From Chytridium lagenaria (Eukaryota; Chytridiomycota; Chytridiomycetes; Chytridiales; Chytridiaceae): 64,000 bases of DNA. Each line of letters opens with the position of its first letter. Within the stretch, counting starts at the first letter, position 1. Below, piece after piece: positions 42,492 to 59,871 of the stretch. Both the position numbers and the translations under genes were made by a program. Location: assembly GCA_025449115.1 (NCBI GenBank), contig JAHLKC010000013.1, forward strand, positions 380,023 to 444,022. The letters are read 5' to 3'. The notes beneath the pieces are model-generated. The model ran no database searches, had not been told where the DNA came from, and worked only from the letters and a program-made list of their open reading frames with translations.

Positions 42492-43423
42492 TGTGAAGTT
42501 CTCTCTAGTGGCCTCCTCTGCTCAGCCTTGACATACAGAGGTAGAGAACCACATTGTAGGTGACAATACTAACTCCCTGGATGTACTCCAGAGTCGAGAA
42601 TAAAGCCCTACTCATCCGTTAAGGATGCAAGGATTTGGTGTGCTGTGGTTTGTGTTTCGTTCTGATCGTTAGTAGAAGGGGGAAAATGAAGGGAAATGCC
42701 TCATAACTAGGTCCAAAGTGACGAGGGGAAAGGGTTCTACGAGAAGGGATTCCATCCCGCTCCAAGGAATGTGTCAGGTCTCTGTTACTGCTCCTTATAA
42801 CCGTTTTAACGTGTTGTTTCTATTGTCTCATCCATCCACGGGCTTCTTATGTGCCGCTACTCCCACTCCAAACATCGGGATGGCATATGTCGTCAACAAT
42901 ATAGCAACAGACGTGGTTCTCCGACCAGACCCTCGAAGGAATCATGCAAATAAGGCGTATTTCTACTGCTCATACCTTCTTAGAAGTTCATCTTGGTCTG
43001 GGTTGCGGTCTCTCCCGGCGACGCCATCACCTGAGCACCCGCTGGCAACATTCAATACACTATAGATAATAAAAGGGGTTGGTGAAAGCTCAGCCAGAGG
43101 CTGGCCTGAAGCCAAGGGCCTTCTAGGTCTTTGGGGTGAACGTAAATCTATTCAACTTTCTACAAATAATAAAACAATACATAAAGGGGAATCAAATAAC
43201 AACAACAGGCATCTCGACCAACGTGGTAGCATGTCATAAGTTGGCATACCACGTCGACCGCCCTTCCTTCTATAAAAACCTCTCTCGTATCTATGGGGAA
43301 AAACTATGAAAAACCCCGAGAGGGAAAAGAATGGAACGGGAACAAGGAAATAAGGATAAGGGCACGACGTCTATATAAGCGACGCATTCATGCCTCTCGG
43401 TGAGGTTATCTTATAATCTCACA
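42492..43423 (-). repeat. 3' LTR of element 1
   Basis: Copy of the 932-bp terminal repeat, TG...CA ends on both strands. Contains TATATAAG at 43372-43379 on the plus strand. Differs from the other LTR by about ten substitutions or single-base indels (e.g. TTAAGGATG versus TTAAGGGATG). Confidence 0.95.
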
Positions 43424-43776
43424 TGCACCCACACTTGAGAACAAGGTCCTTCGTGAGTTTATAACGACACACATATAAGCATATCTTATATAGACTAGTA
43501 TAGTGTAGTGAATACAAAGTCTTCTAATGCTAAGGGTATGTCATCATCCTTAGCTTGTCCCTGTCTTCACGTGGAGAGACCAGTTCTAATGGATTCACGT
43601 CTGTGATCCTTATTATGGTTAAGGTATCATCACATAACCCTATCGTCAAGTTCACCTCTGGGTCTGGAACTATGACTTCTTCTGACGCAGTGCTGGACAA
43701 CTCTTGGAAGCCAGCATTATCACTTGCGTCTGTATAGCGAGTTTCTACTTTCTCGCGTTTAGGAATGCCATGTTTA

Positions 43777-44459
43777 TCAACATGGGCTATCGTTTAAAGA
43801 ACTCTTTAACATTTGTCTTGGCCACGCCATTCCAATATCTCTAACTATAGCAGTTGGAATCTCGCGTTCTAGTAACCAAGTGTTTGGTATGGGCCTTGAC
43901 CAAGCCATTTAACCTTATACTCATACTCTTTACCATTCTCAAGGGTATGATTTTCTAATCTTTCGACATAGAACTCTGGGTCATCATATTGACCTTCAGC
44001 AACGTCGCTATCAAATCTCTTGAAGAGTTCTCTATTCACGCCTTCAGCGACCTTCATTCTGGGTCGACGCTGAAGAACGGCGAACTTCTTCCAAAGCTCA
44101 ATCTCTTGAGCAAAGTCATCATCAACAACACCTTTAGCGGCTTTATCAGCACTATCCTTGGGTGGTATGATGTGATATGGTCGCAATCGAGCAGCATTAG
44201 CCTGCCTAGATAGTAACCGACCATCGGGCAACACTTCTACAACAGTGTATCTATTAAAGTCAGCAGACCTCGCGATGACGCGCATCGGACCAGACCAACG
44301 GAACTGGAACTTCTTAATCTGAGAGTCTTCACGACCCTGCTTGTCAGTCCTCAGAGGCATAGAAAACCATACTTGGTCTCCTATCTCAAATGCGTATCTA
44401 TCGATCTTCTTAAGAGATTTGGCTTTCTCCTTTCGCTGAAGTTCATCTAATAACAGCAA
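43777..44459 (-). CDS. Element 1 integrase C-terminus and chromodomain
   Basis: RYAFEIGDQVWFSMPLRTD and FRWSGPMRVIARSADFNRYT are the GPY/F-type C-terminal module of Ty3/Gypsy integrases. About 100 residues later comes a chromodomain: EFYVERLENHTLENGKEYEY, KVKWLGQ, then after one frame change NTWLLEREI and a stop at 43777. The aromatic residues YV, W and W expected in the methyl-lysine cage are present. Chromodomains direct integration to heterochromatin in chromoviruses. Confidence 0.8.
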
Positions 44460-44661
44460 AGCTCTAGCATAACTCAGTAATGCGGGTAACTCGTCAGCAT
44501 AATCTCTTATCTTCTGACGTTCATTTGCAAGATGCGCCTCAATGAGCTTCTCTTGTTTACTCTTCTTCTTTTTATTAGAAGAACTACTATCAATGGCTGC
44601 ATGTGCAGTCTCTAAGATTGTATCAACCAGTGTTCGACATCTTCTCTAGTCTGTATCAGAA

Positions 44662-46380
44662 CTAGGGATCCACAGAGGTGTGGGCAGTAACATAAGGATT
44701 GCTTAACAATCTTATAATATTGGAACCTGGTGAGAGTGCTACGCCATCGAAAATTTCAAACTTCTTAGGCTTCAAGATACAATGTTCACCTAGATAAACA
44801 CTCATAGTATCACGCTCCAAGTATGGGCGTTGAAATCTATACTGTGGTACATCAGTGATACCTCCTTTGTGAACAACGGTGACCCGCACACGTTGACGAG
44901 AGATATCCTTAGTAGAGGATGCTACAGAATTCCAAGAAGTGAAGAACATCATCTCGCCCGACGGGACGAGACTGATGAACTCAGGAAAGCTAGAATGATC
45001 AGCAGGGAAGGCGCCGTTAGGGTAACGTATACGGAACCTCTTGTAATCCTTAAAGTTCTCGTCATAAGGTTGAGGACTTACAACGTAAAACGCGTCTAAG
45101 TCATAACGCATAATGGTATCAGCCATAAGCTCATATAACCGTCTAGTGCTCTTTGCGGGCAAATCTAACGTGATTTTAGACAGCGCCGTTCCAATGTGGC
45201 ATAATACTGCACAAAGGTAATAGCGATCCGTGGGAATCGTATATGGGACGGCTGGTGGAAGAATGTCAATGGGAGTAGGCATGTCGGAAGGGTGTCGATA
45301 AGCGACACATTTACAAAGGGGATGGCACCCCTTCAGCAGTCCACGTTCGTGGATCAGGGTATCTTCAGCATAAACATCATCCGAGGAGATGTTAATTCCG
45401 AAACGCAAGTCTGCAGGCGTGATAGGATCACGACCAAACATCAACAGGAAAGGAGTCTCTCTCGTGGTGGATGCATTGTTGTCCTATATGCATAAAGGAT
45501 ATATGGTAAGACATTATCCCAATCGCGTGTGTTCGTTGATTAACATACGCGCGTATCATCTGACAAAGAGTCTTATTAGTCCTCTCAACGAGGCCATTAG
45601 CTTGAGGCCAATAGGGCATCGAGAAAGATTGTGACATCCCAAGTATAATGGCAACCTTGCGCATTAACTCACTCGGAAAGGGACTTCCGTTGTCAGAGTG
45701 CAATGAGACGGGAATACCAAATCTACAGAAGCACTGTTCAACGATAATCTTAGCGACGGTATTTGCTTCAATATCAGGTACAGCAAAGGCATCAGCCCAG
45801 CGTGTAAAGTAGTCGGTAAGAACAACTACATATTTATTTCCGTTGACGGATTGTTTCAAAGGACCAACAACATCATAGCGACGCGGTCCCAAGGCTTATC
45901 ACCAAGTGGAACTGGCTTTATAGCACCAGCTCTTTTCAAGTGGTCTTCGACTGTTGGCAAGTACAACACGAGTTAACGTGCGATACAAGTCCTTAGTGAC
46001 GGTAGGCCACCAGAAGCGCTCAAGCATCGTTGGTAACAACTTCTTAGCACCTAAGTGTCCTCCAGTCATAATGTCATTATGAACTTGCTCCATGGCTACA
46101 GAGTGTAAGCTACTTGGAACGCAAAGTGCTAATCGCACGGGAGAGCGACGAAGTAAATAGTTACTAACGTGGATAACTCGATACAATAGTTTATCTCTCA
46201 TAATTGTATGTTGGGCGTTTAATAATACGCCTTTCCTAAGATTATCGTCTTCAGGTAATGTTCCTATTTCTAGAAACTTAATGATATTTGCATAAGCAGG
46301 ATCATCTCGCTGATGCTTACAGAAATCTTCACTAGTCTTGTTAAATACCAAGACATCAGCTAGAGCGTCGTCGCGACGAG
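44662..46380 (-). CDS. Element 1 integrase and following unknown region
   Basis: Zinc-binding HHCC part at 46120-45950 (MEQVHNDIMTGGHLGAKKL, RFWWPTVTKDL, then CTCQQSK in a neighbouring frame). Catalytic core 45892-45428: VVLTDYFTRWADAF (first Asp), SLHSDNGSPFPSEL (second Asp), PQANGLVERTNKTL (Glu), so D, D35E is complete. The core ends MMFGRDPITPADLRF at 45444. The same frame runs on to 44662 through some 230 residues without a recognised fold (YYLCAVLCHIGTALSKITL; RFQRPYLERDTMSVYLGEHC). Frame breaks near 45960, 45890 and 45440. Integrase inserts the cDNA into the genome. Confidence 0.88.
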
Positions 46381-46519
46381 GCTTATCTTTCTTACTCTTA
46401 CGAGTACCTTTGGAGGAACCACTCCGTTCACGATCTACGTAGTAGAGTAGACTTCATAGTCCATTACTAGAGCAGGTAGCGTGAGCAGAGACTCATGTGA
46501 AGTAAAGAAGGAATCTCTT

Positions 46520-47369
46520 GATCAATAATCAACTCAACGAGTTGATGATCACTAAGTCCACCCATGAATCGATGGTAAACAGACCACCTAGCACAAAGGC
46601 TAGGATCTATCATCATGTAATCAACTCGCCACAAACTCTGATGTCTCGCTTGTGGATCATGCCAAGTATAACCTGGGTCATGCGGATGGCAATGTCGGAA
46701 ACCATCAATGAGGCCATACTCTTATCAAAGTACAACGCGTTAAACAACTTAACTTCCTCTTGCTCAAAGCCAGAGTAACCAACCATGCGCATTGGGAAGC
46801 GTATGTCAAAGGAGAACGAGCTACATTAAAGTCACCGCGACGATAGTGCTCTTTCTATGCTTGATCTCATCGATAAAGCTTTTACATTTAGAGAGGAACC
46901 TCATTTTGTAATCCTGTCTAGCTTGACTTCTAGAACCATTGGGGACATACACGTTAACAATGTATAAGCCTGGTAGAGAGATGGTCACGCATCGCCTTCA
47001 CCTCCTTGGCTCCATTCATCATCAAGAGCATTATCATGGAGACAAATACCTTTGCGGGCTTCCTTCTCTATGACGGGGAGTCCTTTGCGGACAAAAGTAG
47101 CAACACCGGCATAACCAGTTCTCATGTCATCGGCATGCATGTTCCAATTCTCTAGGCTCATAAGCTGGTCCCAGAAGAGTTGTCGTTTAAGACTAATGCG
47201 TGTCTCTTGTAGGCAGACAACTGATAGCATTGCTTTTCAAAGTAGCGAACAAGGCATTCGGCTGGATTGGCTTCATCACCTTCCAGCTTTGGCCATAGAG
47301 GACCATGGCTAAGCGATGGAGTCCGTTGACATTCCAGCTAACGATTCTTAGCTTAGAGTCTTCAATCAA
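46520..47369 (-). CDS. Element 1 APE/exonuclease III-type (EEP) endonuclease domain
   Basis: Begins in the same open frame as RT-RNase H with SKLRIVSWNVNGL (47320-47362), the first EEP motif with the metal-coordinating Asn. Following pieces in neighbouring frames are in the correct order and spacing: VVCLQETRISLK (catalytic Glu, about 47215), TGYAGVATFVRKGLPV (about 47100), LYIVNVYVPNGSR (46950), GDFNVARS (Asp/Asn pair, about 46825), DGFRHCHPHDPGYTWHDP (46680), WRVDYMMIDPSL (46610) and LSDHQLVEL (Asp-His dyad, about 46545). All catalytic positions of the APE/ExoIII family are present; length about 280 residues fits the domain. In known elements this nuclease nicks target DNA for non-LTR (LINE) retrotransposons. 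Here it sits between RNase H and integrase of an LTR element. Four or more single-base frame changes cut the domain in this copy. Confidence 0.85.
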
Positions 47370-50300
47370 AGAAGATGTTACTTTAGGAGAAGGTCTAAGT
47401 TCCTTCAACGTAAAAGGTTTGCAGTCCTTGACCATATTTTCAGGTACACGTGCAAAGTGCGTGGTGCTGTTAATTCCATACAGCTCTAGTAAGGATAATG
47501 GATCCGTCTTGCGCTCCTTCCGCTCAGGGATAGGATACGTAAGCTCGCGGATATCATAGATTCGATAAGCGTAATACTTTCGCATGTACTCTTCTAATCC
47601 CATTGACATAGGATCAGGAAACTCGTTGGTTCCCGGAGGAATTGGTTTAGAGACGTGCATGACGTGAGTAACTGCGCCATGCTTTCTAAGAGGCTCACTA
47701 CCTAAAGGGTCTCTATCGTCATTGATATTAACGATCCAAATTCGCTTGAGACCATCAAGTCTCGCAGGATAATAGACATAGTCTTTAGTGCCATTGATAA
47801 TATCTTTCAATGGTTCTGGTGTCATTCTGACGAAGACATCGGATCGTTTGCTATACTGCAAACTTTGACTCAGATTCTCTCGTGAGGGAATATGACTATC
47901 CACCACGTTCACCCACACTTGAAGAGCCGCTGCGTCAGCAAGGCCAACACCAACATGTTCAGGAGAGGGAGGGCGGGAGAATACAATTTTGGAATGCCTC
48001 AAGGGAAATTCATTTAAAGCACTTGTAGGAACGTAAGTCCACAAGTGACGATCGGTGATAGTAAAGAAACACCGTATATCTTCAGGAACTAAGGTGTCTT
48101 GTAATTGCATTACATTGTGTACAACATAATCATAACCAACTTCTGGTGTAGAAGGGTTGGTCAATAAAGCTTCACTAACAGTGAATATATAACGTAATTT
48201 ATTTACAGGATACTTTTCAAAGACCCAGATACGGTCGACGCTGTCCGGCAGCGTAAACGGCAAGTGGATAGTTGAGGTATGTTGCAGCAGCACATCCATC
48301 ACAGTAGATGGTGATAGAGGAACGAGAACATCCTCTGACAGGGAACTCGACTCAGCAAGTAGTGAAATGACTTCCTTCTCAGAGGTTTGTTCTGCTTGGA
48401 TAAGAACCTTGTTCTTAGAGCGAGAGTCTTTACCTACGTAGACTTTGGTCATCCCCTCAGGGATGGTGACAACTGTATCATCGGAGGATGTTTCCACATC
48501 CGCGGCAGGTTTAAAGATGCGAGACAACGCGTCGGCAACAGCCTGACTCTTGCCAGGTGTATGAACCAACTCAATCTCGTGATCTTGAAGGGCATAAGCC
48601 CAGCGGGCGAAACGACCACGCAAGTCTCCCTTGGAGAACAGGGGTATCAAGGCAGAATGATCTGTCTCAATACGATATGGTTTATGCCATGTGTAAGGCT
48701 CAAACAAGTTGGCAGCCCATACGACGGCTAAGCCCTCGCGATCAGTATTGGAATAATTCTGCTCAGCTTTGTTAAGCGTACGAGAAGCAAAGGCGACAGG
48801 GAACAACTCTCCGCCGCGCTTCACGAATAGGGCAGCGCCTATACCATATTTAGATGCATCGCAAGAGATGATAAAGTCATCACCAGGCAACGGGTTCGTT
48901 AACTGAGTCTCAGCTTTTAAAATAGCTATAAGCCGACGGAAAGAAGACTCACAAGAGTCCGTCCAGACAAAAGGAGTATCCTTTTGCATTAGCGTCGTCA
49001 AGGGATGGGCAACATCCGAGAAGCTAGGTACAAAACGACGGAAGTAGTTTGTGAATCCAAGGAATCGTTGGATATCAAGCAACGACTTAGGAGTAGGCCA
49101 GTCGTCGAGCTTCTTCAACTTCTCAGGATCAGGCTTAATGCCGTCTTTAGAAACAACGTGTCCTAAGAAGGGGAGGACGTTAAAGAAGAACTGGCACTTC
49201 TTAGGCTTGAGCTTCAAATTATGTTCAAGCAAGCGATCAATAACAAGTTGAAGGCTTTCAAGATGTGAATCGACATCTTTTGAGAATATAATTATATCGT
49301 CAATATAGACCATACAATGAATCCATTTCAAGCCAGCTAAGACTGTGTCCATACTACGTTGGAAAGTAGGGGGACTGTTTGTTAAACCAAAAGGCATAAC
49401 ATCATATTCATAAAGTCCGTCGGGAGTTACAAAAGCTGTCTTATGACGGTCTTCAGGCTTCATAGGGATCTGCCAGAAACCCGAGAGCAAGTCTAGAGAG
49501 GAGAACATGGTGCTCCCAGCGAGACGATCAAACATCTCGTCAATTCGAGGCAGAGGATACTTATCCTTAACTGTCACGTTATTCAGCCGACGGAAATCGG
49601 TACAGAAGCGCATAGTGCCATCTTTCTTCTTAGCCAAACACACAGGTGAGGCAAAGGGGAACGGGACTCACGGATGACTCCAGTTTTCAACATCTCAGCG
49701 ACGTGATCGCGGATAATCTTGGCACGCTCCAGACCAACAGGGTATGGTGGAGCATTGGGTGGCCGTGAAAACGGCATGAGATCCACGGTATGAACACCAG
49801 GAGACTTATTTCCCGTGACAACATATTCACGGAATACATCAGCATTATGTCCTCTCACAAGGAACTGCTTTAAACGTTCAACCGTGTCTTTATCAGCAAT
49901 ATGAGCATAATCGAACTTTGTAAGAAGTTCTTCATCAGTAATAGGAGTCATGTTCTTAAGGTAGTCCATGCGGTCTTCACTGGTGTAATCGTTTGGTTGA
50001 AAACGAATTTCAGCTTCATTATTAATGATAGATTCTTCTAGTAATTGCATGTCATCACCAGATAGTAACTGTTCAGGCGGACCATCAGCACTAGGGAAGT
50101 TATCACCAGAAGTGTAGCCTTCATCCTCGGTCAAGTTGACCATAGGCATAACATCAGGAACATCCATCATGGGGTCCCGGCTATCATCGTCGTCAGGTGT
50201 ATTTACTAGATTAATAGCCTTCTCAACCACATTTCGTGGCTTTTTAAATACGCGTTTTCGAGGAGTCTTCGAAGACTTCCGTTTAGTATTTGGTACCTCA

Positions 50301-50593
50301 CCAGCGGCTATGTTGCAGAAGTGCACATGAACCTCTTCCAAGGTTTTGAGATGCGGGTTAGCGATCATCTCCGTGACGAAGAACAAAGTCAAGTTCACGT
50401 CATCGTGGAAAGCTTCTGTTAAGGGAGCTATGAAATCCACGGTAGTCCCATGGGAGTCATCAAAAGAAGCTACAGGAGTGCCTTTCTTAAGCCATTTACC
50501 ATGAGGCCCGTGATGGGCTATGTTGAGAGGGAATGGTTTCATATCCACCTTCTTGCGTTTGAATCCAGGGGAATCGTCGGCGAGGTACTTCAT
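47370..50593 (-). CDS. Element 1 reverse transcriptase, RNase H and downstream unknown region
   Basis: The linker frame 50593-49583 leads into RT through a one-base break at a C4 run near 49655. RT motifs: TMRFCTDFRRLNNVTVKD, PRIDEMFDRLAGSTMFSSLD, SGFWQIPM, VMPFGLTNSPPTFQR, VYIDDIIIFS (YIDD catalytic box, about 49290), LGHVVSKDGI, RFLGFTNYFRRFVPSF. RNase H follows: FIISCDASKYGIGAALF (catalytic Asp), NYSNTDREGLAVVWA (Glu), ETDHSALIPLF (Asp) and the VHTPGKSQAVADALSR tail at about 48470. From about 48455 to 47370 the same frame continues through some 360 residues with no domain I recognise (STIHLPFTLPDSVDRIWVFE; YMRKYYAYRIYDIRELTYP), directly into the endonuclease domain. RT to the endonuclease start is one uninterrupted frame of about 2.4 kb (49643-47193). 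Confidence 0.93.
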
Positions 50594-50679
50594 ACCATTC
50601 TCAAAGAGAGAGTCATGAGAGTAGACAGTCGTTCAGATGCGACGTCAATATTGTCCATTAACGGTTCAGCAATGTAATA

Positions 50680-51517
50680 CTTCTGAGGAATATCCGGTAG
50701 ACGGTCCATGGTACACATAATGGTTGAACGCATATGTGGGTCTAAATAACGTCTTCCGCAGCAACGCAGCGGACATATGGTGTTTCACTCCTGTAAGTTG
50801 GACCGGCCTCTGTAACCTTTAAAGGGGTCTCGTAAGCTTTAACGCCTAAGTCTGGATGACTGTAGTAGTACCGCAGAGTGTTTCTACTTGAAAGTAAGTC
50901 CATGTAGAATCCTAAAATGACCGGAGTTCCCAAGATGATGGGCTTTGGGCAGTCTTTAACAACGAAGAAGTCAAACCACTTCTTTACGTTGGGTGTTGAA
51001 GACCCTGGAGATACGCTTAGCGTACACTTACCAGGATAGGTTGTCGTCCACCTACACCGGTGGAGAAACGTCCCGGCTTGAAAGGGGAGAAGTACACAGC
51101 GCGACCTTGCCGGATTAAGTCGTAGAGTAACGACATTTTAATGACATTGCAGTTTGCGCCTCCGTCAAGAAGGGCATCAGCAATGTACACGCCAGATACG
51201 CGGGAGCATATCTGCATTACATGTGGATCCTCAAATTCTATGAGTTTCTGAGGTATAGGGTCAATGATGACATCGTCCGTTTGGATATCCATAGAACACA
51301 TTCCACGGGATCTATAGTATGACTCTAAGTCGTCGTCAGAAGTATACTCATTAACGAGTATCTGAGGTTCGATAGTATTAAATGCCATTGAAGTGGTGGC
51401 CATTATAGGCTCCCTTCCACGGATTTCTGCTTCAGGGCTGCTAAAGTCAGAGAAGCATGCTTGAGACGCACACTCAGAACTATCAGTTGACGCCTCAGAG
51501 TGAGACGATGAGCACAC
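50680..51517 (-). CDS. Element 1 retropepsin-like aspartic protease
   Basis: Contains ADALLDGGANCNVI (about 51150-51180): hydrophobic-hydrophobic-D-G-G-A, the active-site Asp of a clan AA protease with Gly in place of the usual Ser/Thr. The second hydrophobic-G segment (FVVKDCPKPIILGTPVILGF, about 50940) corresponds to the ILG motif near the C-terminus of retropepsins. One frame change near 50970. Cuts the polyprotein; about 150 residues of core fold. Confidence 0.65.
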
Positions 51518-52710
51518 AACAGAGCATGTTCTGCCGCAGAAGGAGAATGGGACACCTTGGAAGTAACGAAAACTTCCTTATCCACCAAAGGTTGAACTTT
51601 ATCAAGTGTGGTACCCATGCTGGAGTGTGTATTAATACCACTACTAAACCTTTCGGGGGGAGGTGTAATGTCTACAGGAGGTGTCTCCTGGGCAACAGGA
51701 GGTGGACTTCGGTTGAATCGGCCTCTTGTTGGAGCTGACATAGATCGTTTAAGATATCGTCGGATTGATCTTGACGCTTTTGCAAAGCCTTTCTCAGCTG
51801 CAAGCTGTTCCACCCTCACTTTGAGAAGAGCGTCCCTCTGTTTGATACCAGCAACGGTGTCTAAGTACTGACGTAAACGTTCACGTCGAGTACTATCAAC
51901 AGAAGGTGGGCTAGCATGGGATGGGAAGTCCACGTTTGCTGACATGATTTCAAATGCGTTGTTCCTCATAGTTGGTGTAACTGTAACGGGAACCTGATTA
52001 ACGCGACGAATACGCGCAGGTTTTGAGCTCGTAAGTACGCGCATGAGGGGAATAACTACACATGAGTTGATTATCGGCCGGTGACGGTAAGCCATAAATG
52101 GTGCTTTAGAATTGACGAGAGGGACAACCTCGTCAACAGGGATGACTTCATCAAGATAATCAGCATCTGGGGAGCTATCCACGCACCATGCAAAGCAGGC
52201 GTCTTCATCATTTTCACGAAAGTAACGGAATTGACCCATATCCGAGCGGATAACAAGAGGTGGTCGGACGCAAAGACGACGAAGGTCGCGAACATGATTA
52301 TCGGGAAGACAAGGACGCGTAATGATGATGGCAGCCATGTAATGGCGCCGCAGATATTCGAGGAATTCATCAAGTTGGTCGTCAAACTCCGAAATATAAA
52401 TAAGCTTATCAACGAACTCTGCAGGAAGAGAGTTTATTGGAAAGGCGTTATTAACGATTTTGTCATAATCAAACTGGATAACATCATCAGCAAAAGAAAA
52501 CGTAGCATTTTTGTCTCGCCAGATTACAGGCGGAGTTTTCTTTATTTCTGGATAAAAATACTGGCATGTAGTGAATAGAAGATGAGAAGGCACTACATAT
52601 GGGTCCTCTTTGACCGACAAAGGGGACGGTAAAGAATCAAGAGGCGTAGATCCCAAGGAAACAACAGCAGGTGTATCAGCTGGTAACTTCAACGAAGGGG
52701 AAGTTTCCAC
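51403..52710 (-). CDS. Element 1 ORF between gag and protease, unknown function
   Basis: Uninterrupted 435-codon frame. N-terminal half is folded-looking (FTTCQYFYPEIKKTPPVIWR, EFVDKLIYISEFDDQLDEFL, RRHYMAAIIITRPCLP), the C-terminal half is basic and Pro-rich (RRYLKRSMSAPTRGRFNRSP). It overlaps the start of the protease frame, so it may be expressed as a Gag-Pol linker by frameshifting. No known domain recognised. Confidence 0.5.
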   Translation of the reverse strand: METSPSLKLPADTPAVVSLGSTPLDSLPSPLSVKEDPYVVPSHLLFTTCQYFYPEIKKTPPVIWRDKNATFSFADDVIQFDYDKIVNNAFPINSLPAEFVDKLIYISEFDDQLDEFLEYLRRHYMAAIIITRPCLPDNHVRDLRRLCVRPPLVIRSDMGQFRYFRENDEDACFAWCVDSSPDADYLDEVIPVDEVVPLVNSKAPFMAYRHRPIINSCVVIPLMRVLTSSKPARIRRVNQVPVTVTPTMRNNAFEIMSANVDFPSHASPPSVDSTRRERLRQYLDTVAGIKQRDALLKVRVEQLAAEKGFAKASRSIRRYLKRSMSAPTRGRFNRSPPPVAQETPPVDITPPPERFSSGINTHSSMGTTLDKVQPLVDKEVFVTSKVSHSPSAAEHALLCAHRLTLRRQLIVLSVRLKHASLTLAALKQKSVEGSL

Positions 52711-52769
52711 TTTTCTTACAGAACGTTAGTTAAATCAGTAAGAGTCGAGGACTCACCACTAAACGCATT

Positions 52770-54013
52770 ATAGGCCTGCGATGGTTAGGGCACACGTTGA
52801 GGGCGTGGTCACCGTGAAGTGGACAAAGCAACATGTCCTCACTCATAGTCTCCGGTAACTGGATGGAGGAGCGTCCACGAGAAGCAGAGGAGGTATCATC
52901 AGCGCGTGGGAGCCATCGATGCTGGTGGAGGGACGCGACAGGAGCACGATCAACAGAAGGAGCACGATCGCGGGGGCAGGAGTCCAGCCGCGTTGAAAGT
53001 TACTACGGCACGAAGAGATCCAGTACCGTTAGGCATTCTGATGCGATCACGGTAAGCGGGGGTACGCGATCCATGAAGGGAGCGGGACGACGAATAAATT
53101 CGTTCATCGTCTCTTCTAACGCAAAGACCTCGGCATCAGAAGGAGGTGAGTGACCGACATCGGCGTTAGAGTAGTCCAGAGCAGCAAGGTCGCGATATGC
53201 TGAGCAACTCGTGGGATAGTTGAGGGTGAATCCTGAATAAATTCGAGTTGCTTGGCGGACTCGTCAAAAGATAAGTTACAAGAGGACGACGCGTAGGACG
53301 CTCGGTAGAGTTACCACGGCGAGCAACAACTTCGTCGTCAAGTCGAGAGTTGAGAGCGCGAACTCACGTTCAAGACGGCCGTATTGATGGTGCTAGGACT
53401 GATTTTGTACTCATAATGTCAAGAACGACAGAGAAGTCCACGTCGAGATTATCGTAAGTCTTATCTTCAAACGTTCGCGCTTGGCAATGGCAGCCCAAGT
53501 GTGGTCAGCACAGTTGACAACAAGCGTTGGCGTAAGGTCTTCTCGTCGACGCGATCAGCAAGAGGGAGAACACAATTCATGAAAAGCATCCGTGCCCACG
53601 AGTCGTTGGCCGAGTGTTCATCGTCAAAAGTCCATTTGAAGGACTCCACGACGCTCGAATGGCGTCGTCATCAAGCCGTTTAGCGAAGCAAGAGCGAAAT
53701 TCCCGACTAAAGTCACTCCAAGCCGTCTTAGATTCCAGGAGGCTGACGTATTTTGCGGCGTTACCGCTAAACATAACGGTAGGGATGAACGTATAGCGAA
53801 ATGCATCATCCATGTCTGTGAAAGCCAACGGGGACCAGTAGTCGAGGTAGTGGTAGATGGTGCGGGTAAGCCGGTTTCCAAGAACTTGCGGTAAGTAGCA
53901 AGGAAATTCAACGCCTCATAAGGATCCTTAGAGACCCCCGTGAAGGTGAGCTTCTCGCACTGCTTGTAGATTCGTTTTCGGAGCGACTCGTCAATCCTTG
54001 GCATGGAGCTCAT
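52770..54013 (-). CDS. Element 1 Gag-like ORF (several frames)
   Basis: Start MSSMPRIDESLRKRIY at 54013. Pieces in successive frames read as a retrotransposon capsid: NFLATYRKFLETG, AFTDMDDAFRYTFIPTVMFS, SKTAWSDFSREFRSCFAKRL (53,700-53,800, the typical W..F...F helix of Gag), ESFKWTFDDEHSANDSWARM. Near 52775-52840 the minus strand codes LLCPLHGDHALNVCPNH, a zinc-knuckle-like motif of C-x2-H-x2-H-x4-C spacing rather than the usual C-x2-C-x4-H-x4-C. Frames change at least three times. Expected role: virus-like particle formation and RNA binding in the cytoplasm. Confidence 0.6.
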
Positions 54014-54882
54014 GATGAAAAGGTTCGAGGAGGCGGAGTTTGACGTTGATGAGGACGACGAAAAGCTGATGTTTAATGAGTCAGCTGAAGGTTCACTATC
54101 GGATTGAAAAAATGAAGAAAAATAACGGAGTCACCTTCTTTATCTTCTTGATAGGAATGAGGACTCGGAGCCGTCTAGTTTATTTAGGCTCTTGAGGGTA
54201 TCTTCATTAACGACAGCATATTCGTTATAATGAGCGAGGGAATCATGAAATAACGTATCAGTGTGTTTTGGCACGGAAGTTAAATCAGGATAGAAAACCT
54301 ACTTGGTAAGTTGTTTATGTCCAAGTAAAGGGGGCTGCGGGGCGTCGCTTCAAACGCTCGTCGATACGTTAGAGGAGGCTCTTGACCGATGTGATGGCCC
54401 ACGGGGGTGTGGTCGGGCTAAGCGTACGAGAATACCAGCGTTAGAGGGCGGACTAGATGCCTTCGCAATGTTTGTGTATGAATTGTCTATTCGAAACAGT
54501 AATGTATCTACTTGAGATTCATACGTAATATTATTTATTGTATCACCCACTTTTCTAGCAAAGGTGTTTCATGAAGGACCTCGTCAAGGACCAAATGCCC
54601 ACTCAATGGTGGGTTTGAATCTGAGATCGGGGATTCCAGCTCTACGAGGTGAGAAGAACTGGATATAGGATGATCAGCTTTTGATGTTAAGGATCATAGA
54701 AAGCAAGGGCGTCGAGGTCGCTTTGATATAGTCCGGATACCCTAATGGAGATTCTGGATCCAAAAGAGCTACCGGGGGTTCGAATCCCTTGTGTAGGTCA
54801 GCATCATCATAGGAAGACGAGGAGCTGACGGAGGAGGGTTCACCCAAGTGAGTATTATCATCTTTTATTTTCTCCTTTCCTT

Positions 54883-55911
54883 CTATTTTATCATAAGGGA
54901 AGGATCATTATAAGGAGCCAGATTGCCAACTAGGAGGGAGGATTCTAACTTAGGGGGACGAGATGACGTTGAACCACTACCTGGGCCGACTCTATCGCTA
55001 TAAGTAGGTAATTTACGGCTTTCAAAAGGGTGTTCCATAGTTTGTTCCGTTATTATCTTTCCTTCTCGTTTTGCAACAAGGATTGAGTCTTTCAGGATCA
55101 CTGAGGAATGGAGCTGCATGCTTCTAGGGTGGTCGCGAAGAGACTCGAGCGTGGATGTCGAGGATCCTGGATCTAGAGGAGTAGAGAGGGGTACTCGGAA
55201 GGTGATCCCAGGGGGTTTAAATCCCTCGTTGGGGTCCGTATAGAGGGACTCATTGCTTGGAGCCTTAGATAAAGACTCGATAGCATCCACAAAGAGCTCT
55301 TCCTCCTCGATAGGTGAAGGGACTAGCTCACCGAATATATCAGGGACAGGACCCGACATGCCAGATGCTGGGAGTTTCAAACCGTCTAGGTGGACATATG
55401 CTACAGTAGGGTTCCATAAAGGATGATGGGAATAATACTTGCCGTGCCAATGAACGGCATGGAACCGAGCAGGATTGACGAAAATCAGATCAGTCGGGTG
55501 TTCCGTCGGAAATGGAAGATTAATCGTTCCAGGATGAAGCAAGCGGACTAGCATGCCGAGGTTTAAGGTAAGTCTTTTATTTTTGGACAAGAACGAAAGC
55601 ATATAACGACTAGGAGAGGCACCTCTCGGAGTGTCATACTGGGACGACAGAAAATGGAGAGGATTAACGGGGTCAGATACCCGAAGCGTATAGTCACGGG
55701 CCACGCTCAAAACGTAACGCATGGAGAACGAATGTTCGTATGTTTCGTCAGGTGTTAACGAAAAGGAAATGGTGATCTCAATGACTAGAGGACGCCACGG
55801 ACGACCCTCATTCGATACGTGCCGAGAAGGGATTGGCCGAAAGAAGGTAAGGACAAAAAACTTATCTTCGAAAGCATCTGAGGACGGAGGTTGAGGAAAG
55901 TTACGGTCCAT
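54883..55911 (-). CDS. Element 1 ORF2, unknown function
   Basis: Uninterrupted 342-codon frame starting MDRNFPQPPSS. Mixed alpha/beta N-terminal part (FFVLTFFRPIPSRHV, RFHAVHWHGKYYSHHPLWNP) and a Ser/Pro-rich C-terminus with a GFKPPGITF motif. The region downstream (54880-54640) contains a similar GFEPP motif in another frame, suggesting that the ORF continued or was partly duplicated. No known domain recognised. Confidence 0.5.
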   Translation of the reverse strand: MDRNFPQPPSSDAFEDKFFVLTFFRPIPSRHVSNEGRPWRPLVIEITISFSLTPDETYEHSFSMRYVLSVARDYTLRVSDPVNPLHFLSSQYDTPRGASPSRYMLSFLSKNKRLTLNLGMLVRLLHPGTINLPFPTEHPTDLIFVNPARFHAVHWHGKYYSHHPLWNPTVAYVHLDGLKLPASGMSGPVPDIFGELVPSPIEEEELFVDAIESLSKAPSNESLYTDPNEGFKPPGITFRVPLSTPLDPGSSTSTLESLRDHPRSMQLHSSVILKDSILVAKREGKIITEQTMEHPFESRKLPTYSDRVGPGSGSTSSRPPKLESSLLVGNLAPYNDPSLMIK

Positions 55912-56007
55912 GTTATATCACAGATACTTTTCAGAAATAAACGTAATTTTATATCCAATCTTTTATTTAGAATATCGAAATATAAGATAATGGCGAAGTA
56001 AAAGACT

Positions 56008-57728
56008 TCACAATACTCTCCAATAAAGAAAAATAAAATATTGTATGAGTAATAACAAAATATCACGATTAAGCCTTAGCAACTTTGGGGGAGGTTCTTC
56101 GTCGTCAGAAGAAGAATCAGGACTACCACTCGTTCCAGCAGTGTCACTTTCCAACACTACAATATCCTCCTTAGTGGATTTGGCAGCCGTAACGGGAGAA
56201 CGGGATGGAGCCGAGGATTCCGAAGAAGGAAAACGAGAAAGGAGGGTACGATCAGCAGAGACACGACGGGATTTGGAGAACGCCGACGACTTTTGGAGCT
56301 CCTTAGTAGCAGCACGAGCGGCGATCTCCTTATCACGAAGGGCACTCTTGATGGCGTGGGTAAGCACTTGATGCCCAGCAGCGGAAACTTTCACGGAGGG
56401 TTTGGACTCGCGAAGCTTTGCAGAAGCAGCCACCGTGTCGCGGTGAGCCTGAAGGAGACAATGGCCTTAGAGCGAAGGAGGTCGTCAGTGAGCTCAGTCA
56501 AAGGACCAAGTGGGGTGACAGGATTAGGGTCTGGTGAGAGGAAGGAGTTGATGTCCTGCTCAAAAGTTCGGGCGGTGTGGAACACACTTTCACGAATAGC
56601 AACGTATCGACGGAAAAGGCCGTTTAGGTGCGATAAGAGCGAAGGAACGGATGAGCGTGGGTTATAGCTCAAATTATGCGTGTCCAAATAGAGACGGAGG
56701 CGGCTGGAGATGCCTTGAAGGAAAGCCAGTACGTATTCTTTCTTGATCTCCCGCTCAACAAAAACGAGGTTATGACGAAAGATCTTGCTATCCTTCAGCG
56801 GGAAGTATGTCTTCTTCTCCAAAATACGATCAGTGACGTGAAAAACTGAAACGTCTGCAATGCGGTCGTCGCGGCGGCGTTTTGAGGCGGATACTGACGC
56901 TTCAGAGACAGGAGTGCTATCTCCGTGATCAGCACTGGCGTGGGAACCTGAGGGCTCAGCAGCCTTGGAAAGGGCTTTATTGAATTCGAGGGTAATCTCC
57001 TTCCTTCGTCGGGTAGCTTCCGTGCGAGAAACTTCAATAATGTCTTGCCAAAGAGAGTTATTCGCTTCCTGGATCTTCTGGAGGCTTAAAGCTGCCGTGT
57101 ACGCGCGCTGATGGACAGGGAGAGCGTCGTCGGCGAGAGGTAGGCCTCGGGCAGCGTGTTCGTCAGCTGAAAGAAACCCCCACAAACTAGGATCCTTAGT
57201 CTCAAAACCGTTCGTAAGGTGAAGTGCTGTGAACACTTTGTTGTTGAAGGCGCTCTCGGGAAAGTCTCCAGTGCTCCAGAAGACCTTCCTCCCAACTTTG
57301 GCAGAGGAAGCCAGCTCAGTAATTAACTTCTTTTCTTTGAAGCTAACTTTATCTAGGCGACGAGGAGCCTTATGGGCTTTCAAGGGTTGACCTGGTGGGG
57401 GCGGAGGTACGTCGAAATCGTCGTACACAGGCTTCTGCACTGCAAAGAAGCAAAGAGGGTCGGATATTAGAATACCACTACAGTATTCAAGTCTGGCCAG
57501 CACTACACCAGCTCTGTCCAGGGGGATGATGGGATGATAAAGAATCGAAATAAAGAACGAGAACGCGATGATGGCTGGAGGAAGTCTCAAAGTACTCACT
57601 GTTTGGGGTGTGGTTTGAACGAAGGATGGTAAAGCGGAACCGCAATGTTTGTATTTGGACGACGGACAAAAATTTGTCATTTGTGAACAAAAAACACTCG
57701 AAGTCCTCTCTTCGGAGAAAGCTTCCAA
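56008..57728 (-). CDS. Element 1 ORF1, unknown function
   Basis: Two overlapping frames (57728-56391 and 56433-56008) connect through one frame change near 56440, where the second frame supplies the in-register continuation (DTVAASAKLRESKPSVKV). The product would be about 570 residues: Pro-rich near PPPPPGQP, a basic KRRRDDR patch, an alpha-helical centre (ARTFEQDINSFLSPD) and a Ser/acid C-terminus (SSDDEEPPPK). No known domain recognised. Its position right after the leader is where Gag normally sits, and size and helical content would allow a structural role; this is inference only. Confidence 0.55.
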
Positions 57729-58940
57729 TTACTGTAAGTCAATGAGCGAGCATCAAAGAACGACGAAAACTATACAAAAATGATCGTAGCATCGATCGTT
57801 ATTTTTATGTAACTTTTCAAATTGAAATTAAAAGGAAAAACGACGATATCGTAAAAACGCAATTCCGTCATCAATAATGAGGTTATATAGAAAAACTTTG
57901 AAGATTCTAAGATACACTTCGCGCCTTTGAATTTTAGGTAGAAATTCGTGTACGAAATCTTAAAATTGGATGCGAAATCTTAAGTCGAAGATTTAGGTAC
58001 TTTATTAAAGTGATATGTAGTCGAAAATCAGCTACAAAAGTATTTTGAAAAGACTTTATGATTCCTTTCATCGGTATAACTTAGAATATCTAAGCTTTCA
58101 ATGCGGGGAGGCAATCGTGATAAAGATCACTTGCATCTATATCTTAACGTTGGACCCTGGGGTCTAACATTTAAGTAAGATTTTTGTGTAACATGATTGA
58201 AAAAAGTAAAATGAATAAAGGTCATTTAAAAGGGGTTCGATCGTTTGATTTTATTCCATTAAGTATCAGCGATAGAACAAATCGCTTTTACGAATCCGAT
58301 AGATTTTATATCGATCTACTAATATCTCAAATTTCAAAATTATTTAACTCAAATTGAGCGAGTAATAATTACTCGAAAAAATAGTTATTAATAAAAGTCT
58401 ACTAATTCGTCCAAAAACTCTCGAAATGAAAGTAAAAATGGTGTAAAGACCATTTACATATAAATAGTGGTTGAAAACCATCTTGTTTATAAGAAAAGAG
58501 GCTTCGGGGTCTCTATAAAAACCTCGAAGTCCTCATAAAAGGTGGTCGGGGGGCCACTACAGCCCCCACAGTCAGCCCTGCATTACACAGGGTCAGATAA
58601 AAACAGTCCTAATCGACCTATGACCCCCAGGGGCTTAGGTGTTTCAGATCTGGGTGGCATGTGGAGAGTCCAGGCCAGCGCATGCATCTATACTAAATAA
58701 ATTTTGGCAGGAATGGCAGGAATTTTGACAGGTTGGTGCAGTGCGGGGGGGAATGGTTGGAAGACCCTAGAGACCCGACTTGCGATCTCGCCGCGACCGT
58801 GCGCGCGAATTCGACGATCAATATCTCGTTCGAAAGAGGGGAACCGTAGCCATAAATGATGTAAAAACAAAAGGATTAATAAATAAATAAAAGAGATCGG
58901 AAAGAAACAAAAACCACCATATTAAGGTTGGGCCCCCATC
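57729..58940. other. Leader region of element 1
   Basis: 1.2 kb between the 5' LTR and the first ORF. AT-rich, no long ORF; presumably the 5' untranslated leader with packaging signals. Confidence 0.5.
58925..58938 (-). other. Candidate primer-binding site of element 1
   Basis: Two bases inside the 5' LTR the minus strand reads TGGGGGCCCAACC. A TGG start at this position is typical of a site complementary to the 3' CCA end of a tRNA. The matching tRNA was not identified. Confidence 0.45.
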
Positions 58941-59871
58941 TGTGAAGTTCTCTCTAGTGGCCTCCTCTGCTCAGCCTTGACATACAGAGGTAGAGAACCA
59001 CATTGTAGGTGACGATACTAACTCCCTGGATGTACTCCAGAGTCGAGAATAAAGCCCTACTCATCCGTTAAGGGATGCAAGGATTTGGTGTGCTGTGGTT
59101 TGTGTTTCGTTCTGATCGTTAGTAGAAGGGGGAAAATGAAGGGAAATGCCTCATAACTAGGTCCAAAGTGACGAGGGGAAAGGGTTCTACGAGAAGGGAT
59201 TCCATCCCGCTCCAAGGAATGTGTCAGGTCTCCGTTACTGCTCCTTATAACCGTTTTAACGTGTTGTTTCTATTGTCTCATCCATCCACGGGCTTCTTAT
59301 GTGCCGCTACTCCCACTCCAAACATGGGATGGCATATGTCGTCAACAATATAGCAACAGACGTGGTTTCCGACCAGACCCTCGAAGGAATCATGCAAATA
59401 AGGCGTATTTCTACTGCTCATACCTTCTTAGAAGTTCATCTTGGTCTGGGTTGCGGTCTCTCCCGGCGACGCCATCACCTGAGCACCCGCTGGCAACATT
59501 CAATACACTATAGATAATAAAAGGGGTTGGTGAAAGCTCAGCCAGAGGCTGGCCTGAAGCCAGAGGGCCTTCAGGTCTTTGGGGTGAACGTAAATCTATT
59601 CAACTTTCTACAAATAATAAAACAATACATAAAGGGGAATCAAATAACAACAACAGGCATCTCGACCAACGTGGTAGCATGTCATAAGTTGGCATACCAC
59701 GTCGACCGCCCTTCCTTCTATAAAAACCTCTCTCGTATCTATGGGGAAAAACTATGAAAAACCCCGAGAGGGAAAAGAATGGAACGGGAACAAGGAAATA
59801 AGGATAAGGGCACGACGTCTATATAAGCGACGCATTCATGCCTCTCGGTGAGGTTATCTTATAATCTCACA
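58941..59871 (-). repeat. 5' LTR of element 1
   Basis: Second copy of the terminal repeat, 931 bp. In the direction of transcription of the element (minus) it precedes the ORFs. The right boundary ends CTCACA, after which similarity to the other copy stops. Confidence 0.95.

Follow-up and report, generated by a model that had tools for sequence, protein, structure and literature searches.

LINEs use EEP domains for target nicking, and the presence of such a domain in the pol region of an LTR retrotransposon of Chytridium lagenaria raises the question of what this nuclease does in an element that also encodes an integrase. An earlier note on this DNA had proposed that the domain is LINE-like and gives the element a second, nick-primed integration route, or else that it is a repair or processing nuclease. 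The window referred to below is the whole stretch of DNA that was analyzed, which is 64,000 nucleotides long.

Organization of the window element

The window contains a Ty3/Gypsy LTR element at 42492-59871 on the minus strand, which is 17.38 kb long as delimited by its LTR pair. The 5′ LTR (58941..59871, minus strand, 931 bp) and the 3′ LTR (42492..43423, minus strand, 932 bp) both end with TG...CA, and they are 99.25% identical over 934 aligned columns, with two mismatches and five one-base gaps. A candidate primer-binding site, GATGGGGGCCCAACC, is found directly after the 5′ LTR (58926..58940, minus strand); it includes a TGG two bases behind the LTR, and the identical 15 letters also adjoin the LTR in C122b, C259 and C184. 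No obvious purine run is seen ahead of the 3′ LTR of the window copy, and this copy has no target-site duplication, its flanks being GTAAT (left) and CCTTT (right).

The order of the pol domains, all on the minus strand, is protease, RT, RNase H, a duplicated domain without Pfam or PDB match, EEP nuclease, integrase and a chromodomain-like end. The protease is recognized from the motif DGGANCN (51146..51166), which we take to be that of an aspartic protease; no Pfam match was obtained for it. The reverse transcriptase (RVT_1, PF00078, E 2.6e-37) is located at 49155..49631, with its YIDD motif at 49278-49307, and RNase H (PF17917/PF17919) is located at 48582..48965. Behind the nuclease, the zinc-binding HHCC domain of the integrase (PF17921, E 2.2e-9) covers 45983..46120, and a piece of the integrase catalytic core is visible at 45428..45895 as an open frame with the motifs DYFTRWADAF, HSDNGSPFP and NGLVERTNKT, the rve domain being seen in L039 and L040, which are unbroken relatives. 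The chromodomain-like piece (43890..43967) scores 19.2 bits with PF00385 (Chromo), and the same model gives 20.7 bits in L039, both values being below the cut-off of 25.1.

The nuclease domain extends over 46533..47357 (minus strand), where it is frame-broken, with its motifs readable. In line with the earlier note, the RT-RNase H frame (49667-47193, minus strand) continues into SKLRIVSWNVNGL at 47357-47319, and the EEP motifs follow in the claimed order on the minus strand, being QETR (within 47198-47218), NVYVPNGS (46932-46955), GDFNVA (46819-46836), GYTWHDP (46653-46673), RVDYMMID (46605-46628) and SDHQLVE (46533-46553), after which the integrase zinc-binding region (46120-45983) is reached. 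The motifs are in changing frames (2, 1, 2, 0, 2, of which the last four are those of the later motifs), and therefore the domain is interrupted in the window copy. When its pieces are scanned separately and without frame correction, one piece out of two reaches 18.3 bits with PF03372 (cut-off 24.5), and xth, the curated exodeoxyribonuclease III model of NCBIfam (TIGR00633, cut-off 99.05), gives 24.5 and 23.6 bits, which is under its cut-off. In unbroken relatives, PF03372 (Exo_endo_phos) is matched significantly over the whole length (E 5e-12, 3.4e-19 and 5.1e-17).

The pol frame of the window copy shifts several times, despite the 99.25% identity of its LTRs. One-base gaps account for five of the seven LTR differences, so that assembly indels and true recent decay are both possible sources of these frameshifts.

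Between RNase H and the nuclease, at 47502-48335, there is a tandem pair of a domain of about 110 residues, with the first copy at 47994..48335 and the second at 47502..47846 (both on the minus strand). The sets of first and second copies match each other in a profile-profile comparison (probability 97.3, E 2.3e-11), and one tryptophan and one valine column are invariant in 10 aligned family copies. For seven single domains no Pfam match is found at E 10, a profile search of the PDB sequences gives no match, and the single-sequence fold, with a pLDDT of 43.6, is not usable. An ASCH/PUA-like naming, made by eye, was dropped, there being no Pfam or PDB sequence match to back it. The duplicated domain is not needed for the architecture, because only one unit is recognized in the related element L040 and there is little room for it in the outside relative P0001, where RNase H ends at residue 2226 and the nuclease starts from residue 2306.

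The nuclease in other Gypsy elements

The genome (41.9 Mb, 356 contigs) was searched with the 824-residue frame of the window, which takes in RT and RNase H together with the linker and the first nuclease residues. Matches with at least 50% identity were merged into 32 family places, the window's included, of which two (C229 and C37:5-859) match the linker part only; these counts are lower bounds, among the matches listed. An xth match is found downstream on the same strand at 30 of the 32 family places among the matches listed, being within 1.5 kb at 29 places and at 5.7 kb at one (C109). Because the domain is conserved across so many copies, a chance match is excluded, and so is a nested insertion unique to the window copy. 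The two places without the nuclease are C273, where the match stops 226 bases short of the contig end, and C115, where the open frame and the match end in the linker, ahead of the nuclease; a copy lacking the EEP domain at a clean junction was sought and is present at none of the 32 family places.

RT, RNase H, the EEP domain and the integrase share a single frame in C198 and C95. The natural frame of C198 (2573 residues) has RVT_1 at 581-739, RNase H at 803-930 and Exo_endo_phos at 1339-1606 (E 5e-12), and continues with H2C2 at 1744-1803, rve at 1819-1915 and a sub-threshold Chromo match. In the frame of C95 (1604 residues), the domains from RVT_1 through rve are present, and Exo_endo_phos is matched with an E of 3.4e-19. 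L039, L040 and P0001 have unbroken integrase domains, and the Pfam order in these three has RT and RNase H ahead of the integrase. The LTRs, the integrase and the one-frame copies thus bear out the claim of an EEP endonuclease inside the pol of a Ty3/Gypsy LTR element.

Below 50% identity, 18 matches are listed. Ten of these, at 34-35% identity, are other Gypsy-like RT places, and none of the ten, among the matches listed, has the nuclease (no xth match within 9 kb); the one of them that was read, L050, is a Gypsy element of the same genome with RVP_2, RVT_1, RNase H, H2C2 and a sub-threshold rve, without an Exo_endo_phos match. The matches at 33% identity (C63 and C115) have an xth match 142 bp away, and the remaining six belong to family elements that are included in the count above.

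An xth-type nuclease is also located between the RNase H and the integrase of a second Gypsy lineage (lineage II), which is very divergent, its RT being about 33% identical to that of the window. The places of this lineage are L092 (C11:220800-224300), L049 (C63:203800-209300) and C115:125380-127524, and in L092 the RNase H, nuclease and H2C2 domains are common to one 653-residue frame.

Beyond this genome, P0001 (3585 residues, JGI source) is the one match of a protein search with a nuclease-region query, and in it RVT_1, RNase H, Exo_endo_phos, H2C2 and rve occur in the same order. This is the only outside relative with the full order found in the protein searches with two subfamily queries; the query from another subfamily matches only P0122, which is a different fusion (see below), and a scan of viral contigs confirmed no relatives there. 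Between the protease motif (1189) and the RT (from 1875) of P0001, a stretch is seen that resembles, by eye, a decayed part of a further EEP domain.

Family membership and conservation of the nuclease

As judged from its sequence, the nuclease belongs with the exodeoxyribonuclease III/APE1 family and has a predicted abasic-site pocket of the APE1/ExoIII type. The TIGR00633 cut-off is passed by all seven LTR-element frames scanned, with 134 bits for L039, 148.4 for L040, 130.8 for L041, 137.4 for P0001, 155.7 for L006, 121.6 for L094 and 128 for L092 of the second lineage. The matches among the PDB sequences are ExoIII and APE1 chains and their relatives (best E 3.4e-27), and the free-standing relatives (120 matches listed) are 26-40% identical, the top match being 34% identical. 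The compared positions are those that we take to be the catalytic residues and, for 266, 280 and 282 (APE1 numbering), the abasic-site pocket. N68, E96, Y171, D210, N212 and D283 (APE1 numbering) are kept in all six lineage-I domains, as well as in L092. The pocket positions are W, W and V/I in all six lineage-I domains and W, F and F in L092, when compared with F, W and L in APE1, with W, W and I in ExoA and with a gap, G and T in the LINE control. Each lineage-I domain is closed by SDH or TDH. This nuclease is therefore like the free-standing Xth enzymes in passing the xth cut-off and in its catalytic and pocket positions, and it differs from them by its location inside a retroelement polyprotein.

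The LINE-like nature of the nuclease that had been proposed is not borne out by these comparisons. PF03372 is a broad family common to both kinds of element, and 37 of the 101 merged PF03372 loci of the genome have no xth match; the one read among these 37, L091, is a LINE, in which the endonuclease is ahead of the RT and has neither an xth match nor the pocket residues. In the window element, in contrast, the endonuclease is behind RNase H, and LTRs and an integrase are present, which sets it apart from LINEs. In the nuclease tree (28 rows, 17 of which are free-standing proteins taken from the 120 listed), the six lineage-I domains form one clade (99/99), in which L003 and L006 are near-identical, and the LINE is on a branch with a length of 6.7. 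A LINE origin of the domain is rejected, with L091 as the LINE compared, on the basis of the xth scores, the PDB matches, the tree and the pocket positions. L092 is on a long branch beside lineage I, with a support of 42/10, and its place is unsure. In the RT tree, lineage I is on one side of a branch with a support of 100/100, where long branches meet. Neither a single capture of the nuclease nor separate captures by lineages I and II are shown by these sequences.

Selection on the nuclease was assessed from dN/dS ratios of domain pairs, using Nei-Gojobori counts. The ratio is 0.046 for L041-L094 (256 codons, with 79.5 synonymous and 20.5 nonsynonymous differences) and 0.018 for L006-L003 (278 codons, with 14 synonymous and one nonsynonymous differences). 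The L040-L044 pair gives 0.146, from three differences only, the value for the RT-RNase H region of the same pair being 0.056 for comparison, and in three further pairs dS is saturated, such that no ratio is obtained. The nuclease is under purifying selection, as seen in the two informative pairs. It is hardly credible that the domain is a passenger without enzymatic function that persists by chance or as a spacer, when considering this selection, the conservation of the catalytic residues in the six lineage-I domains and L092, and the presence of the domain in divergent lineages.

Mode of insertion and possible role of the nuclease

The query with the 3′ LTR gives 50 matches in the genome, of which 27 are full-length and outside the window copy, and the flanks of 20 of these 27 were taken. 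Thirteen of the 20 look like solo LTRs, lacking element sequence in both flanks, and each of the 13 shows an exact 4-bp duplication; two, on C122, delimit a single short element that is nested and has CGTA on both sides; the other five adjoin internal sequence on one side, so they are not scorable for duplication. Leaving the window copy aside, exact 4-bp target duplications are thus found at 14 of the 14 scorable insertions, which are the 13 solo LTRs plus the two-LTR copy. These insertions are of the LTR family of the window element, and their lost parents may or may not have carried the nuclease. Such duplications are integrase-type products, and because they are exact at 14 insertions, insertion by integrase is favoured and nick-primed insertion is disfavoured. 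The two-LTR copy (C122:87761-93425) is about 5.7 kb long, has LTRs of the same family and is nested in another LTR; it is likely a non-autonomous derivative.

In agreement with the idea of a LINE-like target-nicking enzyme, which would provide a second route by nick-primed reverse transcription, an EEP domain is fused here to an RT polyprotein. This idea, as put forward in the earlier note, is nevertheless very improbable and finds no support at the LTR ends, where the duplications are exact at all 14 scorable insertions (the window copy has none); moreover, the nuclease is of the ExoIII/APE1 family, from which the LINE L091 is separated by the missing xth match and the 6.7 branch, the abasic-site pocket positions are kept, and L039, L040 and P0001 retain uninterrupted integrase domains.

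We slightly favour the possibility that the ExoIII/APE1-family domain between RNase H and integrase acts on the element's own cDNA, as a predicted AP endonuclease or 3′-repair nuclease, with insertion likely by the integrase. The family membership and the pocket positions point to this third option of the earlier note, a repair or processing nuclease. The nuclease would be released together with RT and integrase inside the particle, where it would incise abasic sites left by damage or by uracil removal, or alternatively would clean blocked or ragged 3′ ends. The cleaned cDNA would allow RT to finish the copy and the integrase to use the LTR ends, and the insertion step itself would be carried out by the integrase. 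No uracil glycosylase or dUTPase model is matched in the pol frames scanned with Pfam, and an abasic-site role would therefore need host glycosylases. UNG2 and APE1 figure in HIV-1 biology, and in PMC2427051 APE1 in HIV-1 particles is also proposed to help degrade edited viral DNA, which makes the sign of the nuclease's effect uncertain.

It is also possible, though unlikely, that the nuclease removes RNA primers or trims 3′ tails, generating clean LTR ends for the integrase, instead of repairing damaged bases. ExoIII has 3′-exonuclease, 3′-phosphatase and RNase H activity, and the membership of its family, as well as the position adjoining RNase H and ahead of the integrase, fits such trimming, but the abasic-site pocket positions are kept, and the element already has an RNase H of its own. 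A guard against autointegration, encoded by the element and resembling what host APE1 does on HIV-1 DNA as part of the SET complex, is improbable. APE1 is in the SET complex, and its knockdown raises HIV-1 autointegration, as described in PMC2644782, and a 17.4-kb element would be a large target for self-insertion; however, no other SET-like component is seen in the pol frames scanned with Pfam, and the effect in PMC2644782 concerns HIV/SIV and is absent for MLV or ASV.

Considering again a nuclease acting on cDNA damage, there is about an even chance that a base-excision-repair nuclease is a standing extra pol enzyme of giant Ty3/Gypsy elements, captured perhaps twice at the RNase H-integrase junction, such that these elements would have their own AP endonuclease for safeguarding their cDNA. 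The dUTPase, captured several times by retroviruses and in some of these located between RT and integrase (PMC2427051), would be a functional analogy, using the same slot as the nuclease. In KnitGypsy-Dnmt3, a captured Dnmt3 in a Gypsy pol is under purifying selection (PMC5890265); this is likewise a host-type enzyme captured into a Gypsy pol, the enzyme and the host group being different.

The window family shares with the Ty3/Gypsy chromoviruses the LTRs, the RT-RNase H-integrase order, the chromodomain-like end (sub-threshold) and a short fixed target duplication, and it differs from them by the added ExoIII/APE1 nuclease and, in most subfamilies read, by the often-duplicated domain, both between RNase H and integrase. 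As described in PMC11673190, Exo_endo_phos is sporadic in the Kuafuorterviruses/Troyka LTR elements, where it is thought to be host-derived, and IADD, VADD or LADD (xADD) replaces YXDD in the RT of the Kuafuorterviruses. The RT of the window family has YIDD, which places it outside that group, and 30 of the 32 family places among the matches listed carry the nuclease. The available text of the open-licence literature searched (including PMC3248453, PMC5348765, PMC5890265, PMC11673190 and PMC10799480) does not describe a Gypsy lineage in which an ExoIII/APE1 domain is a standing component; PMC3248453 mentions fungal elements of complex structure into which many further domains are inserted, with a supplementary figure. 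Relative to this literature, the window family adds a new pol enzyme to the Ty3/Gypsy elements.

In handling the damage of their cDNA, retroviruses are known either to have acquired a dUTPase or to encounter UNG and APE1 of the host (PMC2427051). Because this element encodes an APE1-type nuclease in pol, the idea that retroelements handle damage of their cDNA, by repair, trimming or guarding, becomes directly testable. Finding an EEP domain in a retroelement is not in itself a sign of LINE-like target priming, a point that matters when transposons are annotated with PF03372; a fungal screen lists this family under LINEs, noting that it is not exclusively transposon-derived (PMC10799480).

In P0122 (933 residues, ENA source), an ExoIII-type domain is located ahead of a group II intron-type RT (RVT_N, RVT_1, GIIM and DUF7662). 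This protein is perhaps an independent fusion of a repair nuclease and an RT, or a merged gene.
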